Made by a program: the position numbers and the translations under genes | Part shown: one piece after another, positions 57,880-63,933 of the stretch | Layout: every line of letters begins with the position of its first letter | Position numbering within the stretch: the stretch's first letter is position 1 | The notes under the pieces: model-generated | The model's database searches: none | Told to the model about the DNA's origin: nothing | What the model saw: the letters and a program-made list of their open reading frames with translations, nothing else | Source of the DNA: Rhodohalobacter sp. SW132 | GTDB lineage: Bacteria; Bacteroidota; Rhodothermia; Balneolales; Balneolaceae | Assembly: GCF_003390325.1 (NCBI RefSeq) | Contig: NZ_QUOK01000009.1 | Span: forward strand, 62,001 to 126,000 | DNA: 64,000 nucleotides | Direction of reading: 5' to 3'

Positions 57880-58479
57880 TTGAGATTTTCTATTACGCCA
57901 CTCATTGCACTCTACCTGATTTTGGTACTTCCCTGCGCAGGTTCAAGTCAGTCTTTTTCGGAAGATTTAATTGAGATAAATGAGCAGAGATTGCAGCTCA
58001 ATCAAAGCGGAATGACCGTGCTTGGAAGCTGGGCTGCAGCAAACATTATTGCGGGCGGAGTTGGGATGACACAAACTTCCGGGCGGGTCCGCTATTTTCA
58101 TGAAATGAACGTGGCGTGGAATAGCGTAAATTTAGCAATTGCGGGGATTGGATATTTCGGTTCCCGAAATGATCCTGCAGCCTATTCGTTGTCGGAAACG
58201 ATCCGGGAATTCCAGAGCTTTCAAAAGCTGCTGCTATTTAATGCCGGACTAGATATTGGGTACATGGCATTTGGGGCGTGGTTGTGGGAGCGGGGAATCC
58301 GAACCGGAAGTGACCGGTCGATTGGATATGGCCGCTCGATGATACTTCAAGGCGGATACCTGTTTCTTTTCGATATTGTGCTATATGCACTCAGCAGAAA
58401 TCAGAGCGGGCCGCTAATCGAATCGCTGGACCGTATTTCTCCGGCACAGAATGGCATCGGCCTGCGAATTCGCCTTTAG
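57880..58479 (+). CDS. Hypothetical exported/membrane protein
   Basis: This 199-residue protein starts at a TTG at 57880 (RFSITPLIALYLILVLPCAGSSQ), the only start that keeps its N-terminal signal or anchor sequence. Several further hydrophobic stretches follow (MTVLGSWAAANIIAGG, VNLAIAGIGYFG, LLLFNAGLDIGYMAFGAWLW, ILQGGYLFLFDIVLYAL), giving about four membrane helices. From memory it resembles the uncharacterised family DUF6992; I could not check this. It begins 14 bases after the pdeM stop and may be read with it. Its end overlaps the convergent sigma-factor gene by four bases. Confidence 0.65.
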   Translation: MRFSITPLIALYLILVLPCAGSSQSFSEDLIEINEQRLQLNQSGMTVLGSWAAANIIAGGVGMTQTSGRVRYFHEMNVAWNSVNLAIAGIGYFGSRNDPAAYSLSETIREFQSFQKLLLFNAGLDIGYMAFGAWLWERGIRTGSDRSIGYGRSMILQGGYLFLFDIVLYALSRNQSGPLIESLDRISPAQNGIGLRIRL

Positions 58480-59045
58480 TTTGACATTTTTCGCTTGACG
58501 GAGTGATGCAACCGGTGAGTAAGGCGTGATTTCTTTGTTCGGACATTTGCACCAGAAATCCCGAACTTCTTGCTAACCTGTTGTGTGGTAGCATCCGGGT
58601 GTGCAAGTAAATAATTCATCAGGTCCCGATCATCAGGATCAAGCTCTTCCAGGCACTGCTCCAGGATCTGCATTCTCTCTTCATCTATTAAAGACTGCAT
58701 CTGATCTGCCGGTTCTACATGATGATTATACTGTTCGTCATCTGATGTAAACCGATGCTGCGATTTCTTGTAATGTAAAAAAGTGTGTCTGGATGTAGTG
58801 ATAAGGTAACTGAAAATGTATTTACTCTCATTAATTTTATCATCGCGTATCCTTTCAAATACATCAAGGAACGCCTGGTGGGCACACTCTTTGGCTTCAA
58901 TTGGAGAGGCGTTCATCACAACACGCAGATAGTCTTCCAGCCTCGGCATCACTTCTTTTAAAAGTTGATTGGCAGTCTCCTCGTCTCCATCCCTGAGGGC
59001 TTCTACTAAATCTGAATAATCGACACGTTGCACGGAAGTTTCCAA
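58476..59045 (-). CDS. ECF-type RNA polymerase sigma factor
   Basis: This 189-residue sigma factor has region 2 (about residues 20-90, with ASPIEAKECAHQAFLDVFERIRD and YIFSYLITTSRHTFLHYKKSQHR) and region 4 (about 130-185, with LEELDPDDRDLMNYLLAHP and a helix-turn-helix TTQQVSKKFGISGANVRTKKSRL). The gap between the two is short, as in ECF factors. The first codon is a TTG at 59045. No anti-sigma gene is adjacent. The gene is divergent from the lipoprotein array across 510 bases. The array plus the CHAT gene could be its regulon; this is inferred from position. Confidence 0.85.
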   Translation of the reverse strand: METSVQRVDYSDLVEALRDGDEETANQLLKEVMPRLEDYLRVVMNASPIEAKECAHQAFLDVFERIRDDKINESKYIFSYLITTSRHTFLHYKKSQHRFTSDDEQYNHHVEPADQMQSLIDEERMQILEQCLEELDPDDRDLMNYLLAHPDATTQQVSKKFGISGANVRTKKSRLTHRLHHSVKRKMSN

Positions 59046-59555
59046 ATCAAATTATATATGCGTGAATAGAAAAAAATGGGAGTGCACCGAAGGACAAATG
59101 AATCACTATATCATATGAATCATTCATTAAAAAAGATATTCGATTTCCATTAATCAATTAAAAATATTAAAATAGCGCAGATCTTATAGACCATTACGTT
59201 TGAAAGACTTATAAATTATTTTGTAACAAAACTACGTTGAAATACTCTTGTTATTGAACAGCACATTATAAGTTTAATATCATCTTTATTGCTATACCCA
59301 ATCATAGATCTGCGGTTAAAGATTTTTAGAGACTGCAATACGATATGGTTATTCACTTTGATCTGTATTGCTATTAAAAATAACTAACCGCAATCATTCC
59401 TGATTGATTCTATCTTTGACGGCAAAAATTGATTACTACGTTGATATTATCATTGGGTGTAAATTTTTACACCCTTGCGTAAAACACCTACGCCGTCTTA
59501 GATATTCAAATATATTATCGGCTCAAGCTAACAAACACTTAAACTACCTCTCGTT
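59046..59555. other. Divergent control region between the sigma factor and the lipoprotein array
   Basis: This is 510 AT-rich bases. The only strong element is the perfect palindrome at 59455-59474. A weaker GCGTA/TACGC pair follows at 59476-59492. I see no reading frame or RNA gene. Confidence 0.6.
59455..59474 (+). promoter_or_regulatory. Perfect 20-bp palindrome upstream of the lipoprotein array
   Basis: GGGTGTAAA and TTTACACCC flank a central TT. The site lies 81 bases upstream of the first lipoprotein ATG. It has the size and symmetry of a dimeric repressor or activator site. As RNA it would form a hairpin with a very tight loop and no T-run follows, so an operator is more likely than a terminator. 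Confidence 0.6.
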
Positions 59556-59783
59556 ATGAAATCTCTCAAATCAATTACCTCGAAACTTTTTACAATTTCA
59601 TTCGCTCTCATTTTCGCAGCAGGCTGCGCAACCGTTACCGATGCCAATATCGATCTGCCTGAAACCGAAGAAACCGTGACATCCACCAACGCTCCCGATG
59701 GCTCTTTCTGGGACAACCGCGCAGGCGACAGCATGGATCCAATCATTGACCGGCCACAAACCGGCGGCGGAATGCTCGACTAA
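59556..59783 (+). CDS. Small lipoprotein, array copy 1
   Basis: This 75-residue precursor has a signal peptide MKSLKSITSKLFTISFALIFAAG and a lipidation site at Cys 24 (FAAGC). The mature part is a 52-residue, acidic, proline- and glycine-containing chain (about 11 acidic against 3 basic residues) with a middle segment NAPDGSFWDNRAGDSMDP and the end TGGGMLD. It differs from the other three copies in the signal peptide and in one mature residue (Gln instead of Lys before TGGGMLD). It has its own leader sequence, while later copies share a spacer, so it is likely the founder copy next to the promoter. I recognise no family. Confidence 0.85.
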   Translation: MKSLKSITSKLFTISFALIFAAGCATVTDANIDLPETEETVTSTNAPDGSFWDNRAGDSMDPIIDRPQTGGGMLD

Positions 59784-59840
59784 TCCAATGCAACTCACTG
59801 CGTCTCTCAATCCAACTTCACTTTCTTAAAAATTACTGAT

Positions 59841-60059
59841 ATGAAATCTCTGACAAACAAACTTCTCGCTTTCTCTTTCGCTCTCATCTTCGCAGCAGGC
59901 TGCGCAACCGTTACCGATGCCAACATCGACCTGCCTGAAACCGAAGAAACCGTGACATCCACCAACGCTCCCGACGGCTCTTTCTGGGACAACCGCGCAG
60001 GCGACAGCATGGATCCAATCATTGACCGACCCAAAACCGGCGGCGGAATGCTCGACTAA
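59841..60059 (+). CDS. Small lipoprotein, array copy 2
   Basis: This 72-residue precursor has a 20-residue signal peptide (MKSLTNKLLAFSFALIFAAG) and Cys 21 as the lipidation site. The mature 52 residues equal those of copies 3 and 4 exactly. The coding bases appear identical to copy 3, so the duplication, or a conversion event, is recent. The mature chain has no other cysteine and no predicted fold that I can name. It may be an envelope structural peptide, a signal, or a target of the downstream protease. Confidence 0.85.
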   Translation: MKSLTNKLLAFSFALIFAAGCATVTDANIDLPETEETVTSTNAPDGSFWDNRAGDSMDPIIDRPKTGGGMLD

Positions 60060-60116
60060 TCCAATACCACTCACTGCGTCTCTCAATCCAACTTCACTTT
60101 CTTAAAAATTACTGAT

Positions 60117-60335
60117 ATGAAATCTCTGACAAACAAACTTCTCGCTTTCTCTTTCGCTCTCATCTTCGCAGCAGGCTGCGCAACCGTTACCGATGCCAAC
60201 ATCGACCTGCCTGAAACCGAAGAAACCGTGACATCCACCAACGCTCCCGACGGCTCTTTCTGGGACAACCGCGCAGGCGACAGCATGGATCCAATCATTG
60301 ACCGACCCAAAACCGGCGGCGGAATGCTCGACTAA
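60117..60335 (+). CDS. Small lipoprotein, array copy 3
   Basis: The protein is identical to copies 2 and 4. The following spacer has one change (CAACCCAAC for CAATCCAAC) relative to the spacer after copy 2. The conserved bases before the ATG (AAAAATTACTGAT) carry no purine-rich Shine-Dalgarno motif, in line with Bacteroidota translation starts. Confidence 0.85.
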   Translation: MKSLTNKLLAFSFALIFAAGCATVTDANIDLPETEETVTSTNAPDGSFWDNRAGDSMDPIIDRPKTGGGMLD

Positions 60336-60392
60336 TCCAATACCACTCACTGCGTCTCTCAACCCAACTTCACTTTCTTAAAAATTACTGAT

Positions 60393-60611
60393 ATGAAATC
60401 TCTGACAAACAAACTTCTCGCTTTCTCTTTCGCTCTCATCTTCGCAGCAGGCTGCGCAACCGTTACCGATGCCAATATCGATTTGCCTGAAACCGAAGAA
60501 ACCGTGACATCCACCAACGCTCCCGATGGCTCTTTCTGGGACAACCGCGCAGGCGACAGCATGGATCCAATCATCGACCGACCCAAAACCGGCGGCGGAA
60601 TGCTCGATTGA
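60393..60611 (+). CDS. Small lipoprotein, array copy 4
   Basis: The protein is identical to copies 2 and 3, but the coding DNA carries synonymous changes. Some (AATATCGAT, GATGGC) match copy 1 rather than copies 2 and 3, while its signal-peptide part matches copies 2 and 3. It ends in TGA instead of TAA, and the shared spacer is lost after it. The CHAT protease gene begins 121 bases downstream on the same strand. Confidence 0.85.
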   Translation: MKSLTNKLLAFSFALIFAAGCATVTDANIDLPETEETVTSTNAPDGSFWDNRAGDSMDPIIDRPKTGGGMLD

Positions 60612-60732
60612 TGATTATTCAGATATTACTTTTTAACTTGTAATGATTCTTCCGTGCTTATTAACTATTTTCAAATTACGGACGATAAAACTACTTAATT
60701 ATAAAAGTTAAGTTTGACTTTAAGTGAGTGCC

Positions 60733-63700
60733 ATGGCAAAAAAAGTATTCATACTGCTTATTACTTTTTTTGTATCGATTGCCACCTATTCTCCTGCACA
60801 ATCTCAGATTACTGACATAGAGGTATTCGATTCCAGTCCATTCATAAATGGAGAACCTATTGAGTCTGATTTACTGTGGACTTTTGCGATTTTATTTCAC
60901 TCCTCCGATAAAAACCTACAGGAATCTCTTCTTCAACGAGTAAATAATCAACAATTATTAGATGCATTAGATACCTCCTCCACCCGTAATTCCATATTGA
61001 ATATTGCTTTCGAATATATGGACGAGAAGATGCTGCTTATTTACCTATTGAATGAACCTTCAGAATCTGAGAGAATTTCAAAATTTGATGAATTCTATTC
61101 AAAATATGAAGCTAATCCCCTTTTAAATGACATAAATCATTCAATTTCAAAAAACGTTAAGTTAAATCTGGATGAAGTCAAATTCTCTGATTTTCCTTCA
61201 GTTTTTTTCTATTTATTAGAATATAACCAGTTTACTGATGTCATCGGCCGCGAAATTTATTCACATATTATCGAATTTTATGAGAATGAATTTCATCAGC
61301 TTCAACTCTCTAAAATAGAAACGGAACTCTACTTATCTGCACTTTTTTACGCTTATTATAGTACTGATCAATTCGGTCCCATTGCTGATATCTTTCAAGA
61401 ATTAATTGCCTTCGAAAAATTTCCTATCTCTCATTCTAAACTCAATCTCTTCTGGAGCCTTGACTATGCAATGTATAGCTTGGGCTATTTAGACAGAAGT
61501 CTTGAAGTCCAAAGAGAGTTCTCACTTCCAATCTCTGATTACTTAGGAGATGAAGGCAGCATACACGCAATCTACTCAAGCCATGGCGGATACCTCTATA
61601 TGCTGGGAAAATACAGGGAAGCGCGTGAAGTGTTTGAATCTACTCTTCGAAGGTCTGACAATTTGAGCGATCAGAATTTAACACGGCTCTACAATAATCT
61701 GAGTCTTGTGTATTTCAGTACAGGAGAATCCGATAAGTATATAGAAACACAGCTTAAAGCGCTCGAGCATTCGCAATCTTACAATAATTTTGATCACCAG
61801 ATCGGCATACACAGAAATCTGCATATTTTTTATAGAAAAAACCAAAATTTTGAGCTCGCAAGTACCTACATCGATCGCGCGGCTGATTTAGCCGAACAGT
61901 TAGAAAACCTTGAAGACTTGATTTCTATTCTGATATCAAAATCAGTTTTTGAATCAACATATTTGAATAATATATATGAGGCAGATCAATACCTATTAAA
62001 AGCTGAAGCCCTGCTTAATGATGATATAAATAGTAGGTTTGTTATTAGAATATTTAGTGAACGTGCTGAATTACTTCAGTCGCAAGATAGAATTGATGAA
62101 AGTATTAATTATTGGAAGGAAGTCGCTAATATTGCGTTATCTCAAAATAACACCCCCATTTATCTTGAAAGTCTTGTTTCAAGGGCAAATCTAAACTTTA
62201 AACTTGGTAATTATACAGAAACTTATGATTTACTTAAAAAATTCAGAGCTCATGATATAACTGTCGTGGACTTTTCAGTTTTGACACTCTCCCGTATTGT
62301 TCAAGCAATGCTTTATCATCAGAATGGTGAATTAACTAGGGCCAAGGATTTATTTGCTGAAACAACAGAATTGGTACTTGAACGCGCCCGCTACTCTGCA
62401 GATCTAGAAACGGGATATTGGACGGTTGAAGGGGAGTATATGCAGCTTTTTGAAACCTATGCGGATTTTCTGATTGAGCGAAATATGACCACCGAAGCTG
62501 TTCAGATGCTGGATCGAATTAAAACGATAAATGATGCTTCCATGCTTCAAAACCCGCTCATCACCTCATCCCAGCTTTCTGAGGAACAGCTCAGCAGAGA
62601 TCAGCAGATTACCCGTGAAATGGAAACGCTCAGGCGAAAACTTTTTGTCGCATCAAATAACGAAAGACTTCAATTAAACAATCAGATTGAAAGGCTCCAG
62701 GCTCAAAAAAGAGAGCTGTTTCGGGACCAGCGTTCCATGCCAGTCAATCAACGGGAAATTCCAATCTGGAGCATTCAGCGGTCACTTGGCAGCGACCAGG
62801 TTATGATGCACATCACAAGCATAAACGACAGTTATTACATCAGTCAGGTCACCCGCGATGACATTGATATACGAAAAGTCAACATTGATGAGGATCTGAA
62901 ATCTGTTTTTGAAACTGCGATTCAAGGGATGATATCCGGCCGAACGGATCTTAATGCCCTCTATGAAATTGGTCAGATGCTAAATATCAATGATTTATCA
63001 AAGTCCTACTCATCGCTGATTTTGATTCCGGATGGATACCTTCATCAACTCCCACCCGATGTAATCCCACTGAATAAACCTGTTTCATCACACAGCTACG
63101 GTGCAACAACATTTTTAATTGAACACATGGATGTGAGAACTCTGAATCGACTGGACGACATGCGACAGCGACGTCAGAGTATAGATTTTGAATACGATTT
63201 CACCGGGTTTGGTGTAGCTGATTTTCAAAACAGTACAACCAACCGTTCGCTGATGCCGCTTCCACAGGCGCCGGGTGAGGTTAGTAAAATTCAACACAAT
63301 CTGCAGAGGTTTCCAAAACGAACAGCCTTCATAGAACATGATGCTACCCCTCAAAGATTTAAAGAGATTGCTGGAAACAGCCGAATTCTGCACATGGCCA
63401 CACACAGTGAAATCTCTGAGAGTGATCCGCTTTTCTCAAGACTGCACCTGCTTCCGGATCAATTTTCGGATGATCCCGATCCCGCAAATCAAATTTTTGC
63501 ATATGAATTATTCGAACTGAATCTTCAGAACGAATTGATTATGCTTAATTCATGCGAATCAGGCGGTGACCGTGCAATACAGGGCAGCGGAATTATGGGA
63601 TTAAGCCGGGCACTTCATTATGCAGGTGCTCAAAGTTTGATCTTAAATGCATGGTCGGTAAACGACCAGTTTGCAGCAGATTTTGCAGAAATGTTCTATC

Positions 63701-63933
63701 ACCACATAAATGAAGGTGAAACCAAATCAAGAGCACTCCAGCTTACTAAAATTGACTTTATTAAGAACAAAAATGCCAACCCGCACTTTTGGGGGCCATA
63801 TATTCTGAACGGTAACAATGAGCCATTGATTCAAAAACGCGGAGCAAACCTTGGTAACTGGCTCATCGCACTAATTTTCATCGCAGGATTTTTCGTAGTC
63901 ACAAGAACCCGAAACAGTTCACTTGCTGCCTGA
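60733..63933 (+). CDS. Exported TPR-CHAT (caspase-like) protease with C-terminal membrane anchor
   Basis: This 1066-residue protein starts at the ATG at 60733 (a GTG three codons upstream is less likely). A signal peptide (KKVFILLITFFVSIATYSPAQSQ) is followed by a long helical region of about 500 residues with tetratricopeptide repeats (YREAREVFESTLRRS, LTRLYNNLSLVYFSTGESDKYIE, TRAKDLFAETTELV). A coiled-coil segment lies near 620-680. The C-terminal CHAT domain has the catalytic pair: His 891 in LHMATHSEIS and Cys 941 in IMLNSCESGG, then SRALHYAGAQSLILNAWSV. A last hydrophobic helix (NWLIALIFIAGFFVV) precedes a short basic tail. The predicted site is the periplasmic face of the inner membrane. 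TAAGTTTG at 60709-60716 fits a Bacteroidota -7 element. CHAT proteins are caspase relatives; the substrate here is unknown, with the adjacent lipoproteins as candidates. Confidence 0.88.
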   Translation: MAKKVFILLITFFVSIATYSPAQSQITDIEVFDSSPFINGEPIESDLLWTFAILFHSSDKNLQESLLQRVNNQQLLDALDTSSTRNSILNIAFEYMDEKMLLIYLLNEPSESERISKFDEFYSKYEANPLLNDINHSISKNVKLNLDEVKFSDFPSVFFYLLEYNQFTDVIGREIYSHIIEFYENEFHQLQLSKIETELYLSALFYAYYSTDQFGPIADIFQELIAFEKFPISHSKLNLFWSLDYAMYSLGYLDRSLEVQREFSLPISDYLGDEGSIHAIYSSHGGYLYMLGKYREAREVFESTLRRSDNLSDQNLTRLYNNLSLVYFSTGESDKYIETQLKALEHSQSYNNFDHQIGIHRNLHIFYRKNQNFELASTYIDRAADLAEQLENLEDLISILISKSVFESTYLNNIYEADQYLLKAEALLNDDINSRFVIRIFSERAELLQSQDRIDESINYWKEVANIALSQNNTPIYLESLVSRANLNFKLGNYTETYDLLKKFRAHDITVVDFSVLTLSRIVQAMLYHQNGELTRAKDLFAETTELVLERARYSADLETGYWTVEGEYMQLFETYADFLIERNMTTEAVQMLDRIKTINDASMLQNPLITSSQLSEEQLSRDQQITREMETLRRKLFVASNNERLQLNNQIERLQAQKRELFRDQRSMPVNQREIPIWSIQRSLGSDQVMMHITSINDSYYISQVTRDDIDIRKVNIDEDLKSVFETAIQGMISGRTDLNALYEIGQMLNINDLSKSYSSLILIPDGYLHQLPPDVIPLNKPVSSHSYGATTFLIEHMDVRTLNRLDDMRQRRQSIDFEYDFTGFGVADFQNSTTNRSLMPLPQAPGEVSKIQHNLQRFPKRTAFIEHDATPQRFKEIAGNSRILHMATHSEISESDPLFSRLHLLPDQFSDDPDPANQIFAYELFELNLQNELIMLNSCESGGDRAIQGSGIMGLSRALHYAGAQSLILNAWSVNDQFAADFAEMFYHHINEGETKSRALQLTKIDFIKNKNANPHFWGPYILNGNNEPLIQKRGANLGNWLIALIFIAGFFVVTRTRNSSLAA

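Follow-up and report, generated by a model that had tools for sequence, protein, structure and literature searches.

A tandem lipoprotein gene array in a conserved module with an ECF sigma factor and a TPR-CHAT protein

The stretch of DNA analysed here, 64,000 nucleotides in length and called the window below, contains four tandem lipoprotein genes at positions 59556–60611, all on the plus strand and with a repeat unit of 276 bases. The array belongs to a conserved module, which is composed of a divergent ECF sigma factor gene, the lipoprotein array, a TPR-CHAT gene with an intact His/Cys pair and a convergent, probable anti-sigma gene. The likeliest cause of the uniformity of the array is concerted evolution under purifying selection. 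As the last step of the argument, we infer that the lipoprotein most likely works with the TPR-CHAT protein, as a dose-sensitive partner, in a circuit that responds to envelope stress. A literature search over titles and the starts of abstracts, mostly of open-licence papers, returned no prior description of the array or the module.

The four lipoprotein genes

Copy 1 (59556–59783, +) encodes 75 residues, and copies 2 (59841–60059, +), 3 (60117–60335, +) and 4 (60393–60611, +) encode 72 residues each; the array has a score of 1909 in Tandem Repeats Finder. The protein of copy 1 differs from those of copies 2–4 by a distinct, longer signal peptide of 23 residues and by one change, Q for K, near the C-terminus. 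Because this signal peptide is longer, the first start-to-start distance is 285 bases. The unit of copy 3 equals that of copy 2 except for one intergenic base. Copies 2, 3 and 4 encode one identical protein and their genes differ at silent sites only, as a sequence-only reading of this DNA had stated. The same reading had described copy 4 as carrying silent alleles of copy 1 inside a body otherwise like copies 2 and 3. The alleles are there, with T at unit sites 84, 90 and 135 of copies 1 and 4 and C in copies 2 and 3. In addition, copy 4 has private changes at sites 91, 183 and 216 and in the stop codon, which is TGA instead of TAA. No copy beyond these four was found in the genome of the window (G000; 5.08 Mb, 45 contigs) at E values up to 0.001.

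We compared the mature parts of copies 2 and 4 by the NG86 method, which gives six synonymous changes, three of them common to copy 1, and no non-synonymous change. Under neutrality, the probability that all six are silent by chance is 1.6e-4. The coding sites at which copy 4 sides either with copy 1 or with copies 2 and 3 number 21, and the three copy-1-like sites are consecutive among them (P = 0.014, by order alone). This run hints at a conversion tract in copy 4. The three shared silent sites by themselves do not prove gene conversion, because the array contains only three distinct unit sequences (1, 2 = 3 and 4) and every two-allele site fits without it. There is nearly an even chance that copies 1 and 4 have these alleles in common as retained ancestral states or through parallel changes; no site is in conflict given the three units, and there are just three such sites, all of them C/T third positions. 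Their consecutive order argues against this reading, and so does the nearest outgroup, G003, where two of the three carry C and the remaining one is mixed; its silent sites are near saturation and too diverged to decide. When G003, G083, G085 and G103 are used together for polarization, the silent sites are likewise too diverged to orient the three alleles.

Judged by its signal peptide and lipobox Cys, the array product is predicted to be a bacterial lipoprotein. The Cys is invariant and followed by Ala in all 24 aligned proteins, and it is preceded by G, A or S. The protein has no match to a Pfam or NCBIfam family at E values up to 0.001. Its mature part is acidic (net −8) and varies between genera except for C-A-S-V-T-D after the Cys and a C-terminal P-I-[IV]-x-[KR]-P. 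This pattern of conservation points to binding rather than to bulk structure, and would be as expected for a tethered peptide that is bound by TPRs or cut by CHAT.

Copy number, homogenisation and selection across species

With a lipoprotein profile, 69 of the 92 genomes of the family, taken to be Balneolaceae, gave matches at E values up to 0.01, some of them weak; a broader profile found 78 of the 128 genomes of the order, taken to be Balneolales, at E values up to 1e-4. The TPR-CHAT alignment retrieved, among others, loci of Gracilimonas, Balneola, Fodinibius/Aliifodinibius and Rhodohalobacter. Each species is represented by a single genome, and copy number is therefore compared between species; the sequence-only reading had spoken of array length varying between strains. 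The sigma factor and CHAT genes lie on one contig in 40 stretches, of which 32 are free of N runs near the array and eight have N runs in the array or within 200 bases. These 32 closed, gap-free loci carry one copy (nine loci), two (14), three (five), four (three) or six (one), so that the range is 1–6 and 23 of them have more than one copy. Arrays are also present in two single-contig genomes, G059 with three copies and G082 with four.

In many relatives, contig ends and N runs fall at the array, which would favour the view that the four copies are a single gene mis-assembled. We rejected this explanation as extremely improbable: the copies differ at fixed sites, and 23 of the 32 closed, gap-free loci are tandem, including those of the single-contig genomes G059 and G082. 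Breakage at the array was assessed on contigs longer than 30 kb from the TPR-CHAT search. Seven of these 22 contigs (L116, L125, L126, L127, L130, L132 and L143) have their start no more than 1 kb upstream of the match to TPR-CHAT, and none of the 22 ends within 3 kb downstream of it; this is the count that we use for contig breaks. Of the 69 genomes, 16 have lipoprotein matches that start 110 bases or less from a contig start, on 18 contigs in all; four of these matches are weak, with E values of 4e-4 to 1e-3 (G084, G072 C9, G086 C216 and G073 C2). Anti-sigma matches are an unfair comparison for this edge count, since their stricter E value loses short edge pieces. As arrays tend to break assemblies, copy numbers in draft genomes may be underestimated. 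In G010, two large contigs break at the array: one, of 2.1 Mb, has its start within a lipoprotein copy, and the other, of 415 kb, ends just upstream of the TPR-CHAT gene (L190, L191), and the array can thus limit the assembly of otherwise good genomes.

To compare the copies between species, trees were built with FastTree, without a support test, from 96 complete copies; partial or gapped copies were excluded from the trees and from the substitution sums. The mature parts of all complete copies form one clade per genome in 29 of 31 genomes, and the signal-peptide parts do so in 22 of 31. The signal-peptide clade of the window copies also includes the first copies of G083, G085 and G103, which belong to another genus. 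The first copies of G000, G083, G085 and G103 carry a signal peptide of 23 residues, against 17–20 residues in the later copies. For G083, G085 and G103, the first-copy signal peptide is nearer to the first copy of another genome than to its own later copies; that of G000 is nearest to its own genome (0.74 versus 0.68). Among the 30 arrays in this comparison (G013 was skipped for a gap in its first copy), the best match of the first copy lies within its own genome for 26 by the signal peptide and for all 30 by the mature part. The signal peptide of the G093 first copy has a slightly better match elsewhere (0.87 versus 0.86), and G014 gives a tie at two decimals. Differences in the signal peptide affect 7.9% of positions in pairs with the first copy and 1.6% among later copies, and the corresponding values for the mature part are 4.8% and 2.7%.

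The simplest reading of the group of G000, G083, G085 and G103 is an old array with a homogenised interior and a 5′ edge that escapes homogenisation. The copies would also cluster by genome if each species had recently built its own array, with likeness arising without conversion, and duplication does look fresh in the window, for copies 2 and 3, and in G059, for its three identical coding copies. We nevertheless regard recurrent independent duplication as unlikely. The first copies of G000, G083, G085 and G103 have a long signal-peptide type in common across two genera, and the tandem state therefore seems older than the split in that group; at the same time, the mature parts of these first copies match the later copies of their own genomes. 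Recent independent duplication may hold in other lineages, which lack the edge signal. With its edge left out of homogenisation, the array offers a clear natural example of concerted evolution acting on a protein-coding gene of bacteria.

Selection was measured on neighbouring complete copies by NG86. The sum covers 29 usable arrays of 31 listed, with pairs of unequal length skipped (three in G107 and one in G103), and gives pS = 0.094, pN = 0.0077 and pN/pS = 0.08; the pooled binomial test rounds the counts of 34.5 and 129.5 and treats pairs as independent. Replacement differences are present in 11 of the 29 usable arrays, most of them in G065 (10) and then in G085 (7.5), and G071 has more replacement differences (two) than silent ones (one). 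The divergence that had been called synonymous-only is so in copies 2–4 of the window, but not in those 11 arrays. Replacement changes are removed overall, and the copies are therefore useful or are continually overwritten by useful ones. The earlier proposal of gene conversion or unequal crossover combined with selection on the protein is well supported by the relatives, although not by the three shared alleles of copy 4 on their own.

Genes and promoter sites of the module

Gene order was counted in 68 annotated stretches, obtained from lipoprotein matches plus one from an anti-sigma match; weak lipoprotein matches inside long unrelated frames were left out. The lipoprotein is upstream of and codirectional with the TPR-CHAT gene in 52 of 52 loci holding both, the loci having been chosen by lipoprotein matches. 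The sigma factor gene has a divergent orientation in 55 of 55 loci, and in 50 of 50 the anti-sigma-like and CHAT genes converge. A DUF6992 gene (57880–58479, +; PF22503, 3e-43), which lies behind the sigma factor gene here and in many relatives, is probably outside the module.

The TPR-CHAT gene (60724–63933, +; PF12770, 1e-43) has a GTG start at 60724 and an ATG at 60733. Its product has a signal peptide-like start, a TPR array, a CHAT domain and a hydrophobic C-terminal segment, the two ends being assigned by hydropathy only. His891 and Cys941 of the CHAT domain, numbered from 60733, are invariant in 23 of 23 aligned proteins. The predicted model has a pLDDT of 84, and its best fold matches are Csx29, separase and DdvA. 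Superposition gives Z = 26.1 with an rmsd of 8.8 over 565 residues for Csx29/Craspase (7y9x_B) and Z = 24.6 with an rmsd of 3.6 over 307 residues for separase (5fby_A). Residues 253–1027 of the model match 8rw5 with Z = 21.5 and an rmsd of 4.5 for 485 aligned residues (Foldseek rank 4). This entry and 8rot are DdvA, a transmembrane anti-sigma factor known from Myxococcus xanthus, where it pairs with DdvS, an ECF sigma factor. Chains with TPRs alone score about as high in Z, but align over shorter stretches (22.1 over 232 residues for 7ai4_A). The PDB-chain matches to the TPR-CHAT sequence or alignment were TPR-type proteins with no CHAT chain among them, and Csx29 was not among the profile matches to PDB chains at E values up to 0.001. 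From these features, the product looks like an exported and membrane-anchored protein of the caspase/separase fold. Five proteins tested against PADLOC gave no match to anti-phage defence.

The anti-sigma-like gene, convergent with the TPR-CHAT gene, lies just outside the window (G000:C9:126501–127238, or 64501–65238 on the window scale). Its product has a helical N-terminus, one hydrophobic segment and a TPR part, and is a probable membrane anti-sigma factor with TPRs. The N-terminus has a weak NCBIfam match, LIMLP_03685 (8e-6, 25 bits against a cut-off of 200 bits), which ranks below TPR-type families. The model is modest, with a pLDDT of 71; Foldseek returned no match at E = 0.001 or better, and the weaker matches listed were for the most part to TPR or designed repeat proteins. 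In four of four loci (G000, G082, G059 and G014), a paralogue of the anti-sigma gene immediately follows a paralogous sigma factor gene in the same orientation, and a second TPR-CHAT gene is near this pair in G082, G059 and G014. The paralogous pair in the genome of the window, sigma and anti-sigma with TPRs, is at L178:6789–8194 (G000:C1, about 104.8–106.2 kb). Anti-sigma homologues (E up to 1e-10) were found in 51 of 394 genomes of a phylum sample, and all 51 are labelled as belonging to the same order as the window.

The sigma factor gene (58476–59045, −) is divergent from the array and, by its profile scores, encodes a predicted ECF-type sigma factor: TIGR02937 matches with E = 9.6e-15 and 54.6 bits (cut-off of 42.9) and PF07638 with 6e-6 and 26.6 bits (cut-off of 21.1). 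Upstream of the array is an ECF-type promoter-like site, TGTAACA-N15-ACTCTTG (59222–59250, +), the only strict plus-strand site in the window. A second site at about 65449, outside the window, precedes the anti-sigma gene. The strict motif, TGTAACA-N13-17-ACTCTTG, occurs at nine sites in the genome of the window, and the reversed pattern at none; among the eight genomes searched, G082 has no site and G064 has one match to the reversed control. Upstream of the array, 27 of 50 genomes have the strict motif, with 0.00 expected, and 37 have the relaxed motif, with 0.02 expected; two or more relaxed sites are present in 22. The relaxed motif is absent from this region in 13 of the 50 genomes, including G003, the closest relative in sequence. 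Upstream of the anti-sigma gene, the strict motif is found in 17 of 43 genomes and the relaxed motif in 30 of 43 (0.00 expected for the latter); upstream of the sigma factor gene, it is found in none of 48. In the six genomes with the most diverged sigma factors among the 50 (27–29% identity), the −10 element is changed to give TGTAACA-N-CATC-type sites. This fits the sigma factor and its promoter changing together, and the six may represent one event in one lineage. The variant site is upstream of just one of 43 anti-sigma genes. Between the promoter-like site and copy 1 lies a perfect inverted repeat, GGGTGTAAA-TT-TTTACACCC (59455–59474), which is a possible operator.

A possible circuit and its relation to known systems

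We propose that homologous recombination between copies, by unequal crossing-over, conversion or both, keeps the array uniform together with purifying selection. The array would open an apparent operon whose last gene is the TPR-CHAT gene, and the divergently encoded ECF sigma factor probably reads the operon promoter. With the same promoter type at the anti-sigma gene, sigma output would raise the lipoprotein, the TPR-CHAT protein and the anti-sigma factor together. Most likely, the lipoprotein is abundant outside the cytoplasm and serves the TPR-CHAT protein there as ligand or substrate, at a dose that array length would set. When the envelope is disturbed, the TPR-CHAT protein may act on the lipoprotein, the anti-sigma factor or both, so that the sigma factor is released. 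If true, this would supply a candidate ligand or substrate outside the cytoplasm, and an output through a sigma factor, for the caspase-like TPR-CHAT proteins of bacteria that include named species of Gracilimonas, Fodinibius and Rhodohalobacter. It would also show that a signalling module can be adjusted through the copy number of one of its genes, as with a dial.

We consider this combination of a homogenised array, an operon and a lipoprotein that serves the TPR-CHAT protein in a sigma circuit to be evenly balanced between true and false. The computations bear out the array itself, its concerted evolution under purifying selection, the constant gene order, the common promoter motif and the CHAT fold with its His/Cys dyad; co-transcription, the pairing of sigma factor and promoter, anti-sigma and protease activity, protein location and the partnership of the lipoprotein are inferred. 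The lipoprotein and the TPR-CHAT protein are linked solely by constant adjacency and orientation. High dose is not essential, as nine of the 32 closed, gap-free loci have a single copy; the need for dose that the sequence-only reading had suggested is plausible. The replacement changes in 11 of 29 arrays, up to 10 in G065, also count against the proposal, as do the weak N-terminal match and modest model of the anti-sigma protein, the 13 of 50 upstream regions that lack the relaxed motif, the motif sites elsewhere in the genome and the reversed-control match in G064. A somewhat unlikely alternative is that the lipoprotein is an abundant envelope component, for which the tandem copies only raise output, and that the TPR-CHAT gene is an independent passenger. 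The copies are indeed kept alike (pN/pS = 0.08), and csa1 is a known example of tandem lipoprotein genes for which more copies give more protein (PMC7360770). However, the lipoprotein gene lies upstream of a homologous TPR-CHAT gene in 52 of 52 loci with both, a constancy that a passenger would not need, single-copy loci exist, and the mature part is poorly conserved between genera except for the residues after the Cys and P-I-[IV]-x-[KR]-P. Our proposal could be taken further, to an extracytoplasmic counterpart of the Csx29–Csx30–sigma switch in which the signal of a periplasmic, caspase-like TPR-CHAT protease would be read through the array-encoded lipoprotein with its C-terminal P-I-[IV]-x-[KR]-P, and changes in array length driven by recombination would tune the threshold of an ECF sigma factor stress response; we judge this version improbable.

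The closest parallels are DdvA–DdvS and Csx29–Csx30. In DdvA, an anti-sigma domain, a membrane segment and TPR-CHAT are combined in one chain, and the TPR-CHAT part is periplasmic. The present module shares with DdvA the TPR plus CHAT-like fold and the link to an ECF sigma factor. It differs in that the functions look split, with a signal peptide-like start on the TPR-CHAT protein and the likely anti-sigma domain in a separate small TPR protein, and in the addition of the lipoprotein array. DdvS is described as active once DdvA is inactivated, by a signal given there as unknown (PMC4374960).

Csx29 of the type III-E CRISPR Craspase has the TPR-CHAT fold with catalytic His and Cys in common with the protein studied here. 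No frame larger than the TPR-CHAT gene, as a Cas7-11/gRAMP gene would be by its size, was found in 17 stretches, several of which end at contig edges. The TPR-CHAT protein here also looks exported and membrane anchored, in contrast to Csx29. According to PMC10028731, Csx29 cleaves Csx30, the inhibitor of an ECF-like sigma factor (CASP-sigma), and TPR-CHAT, sigma factor and inhibitor are encoded together, as they appear to be in the present module. Because the one-chain layout of DdvA and the neighbourhood of Craspase are both absent, the parallel with the two systems is one of functional resemblance and not of membership.

The csa1/lpl genes of Staphylococcus aureus, a 'gene accordion', vary in number, and the amount of protein follows the copy number (PMC7360770). 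The likeness is in tandem, similar lipoprotein genes that vary in number, here between species; the present lipoprotein differs in having 72–75 residues and a tie to a sigma/TPR-CHAT module, and the lack of a Pfam or NCBIfam match noted above places it outside that family. In the ECF54 group, CHAT-domain proteins are reported to be encoded in the neighbourhood of an ECF sigma factor gene, and control without an anti-sigma factor is proposed (PMC8999054). The present module contains a probable anti-sigma gene in contrast, and the likeness is by gene context.

Seven of the nine strict motif sites in the genome of the window lie outside the module. Several of the other motif sites have no convincing downstream gene. 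Three kinds of downstream frames recur, as judged by eye, in G006, G064 or both, with the motif before them in more than one genus: a response-regulator receiver (L149, L155 and L159), a membrane protein of 194–199 residues followed by a cold-shock-like protein (L150 and L163), and a pilin-like protein (L153 and L162). The genes that share the motif across genera are possible members of a candidate regulon.
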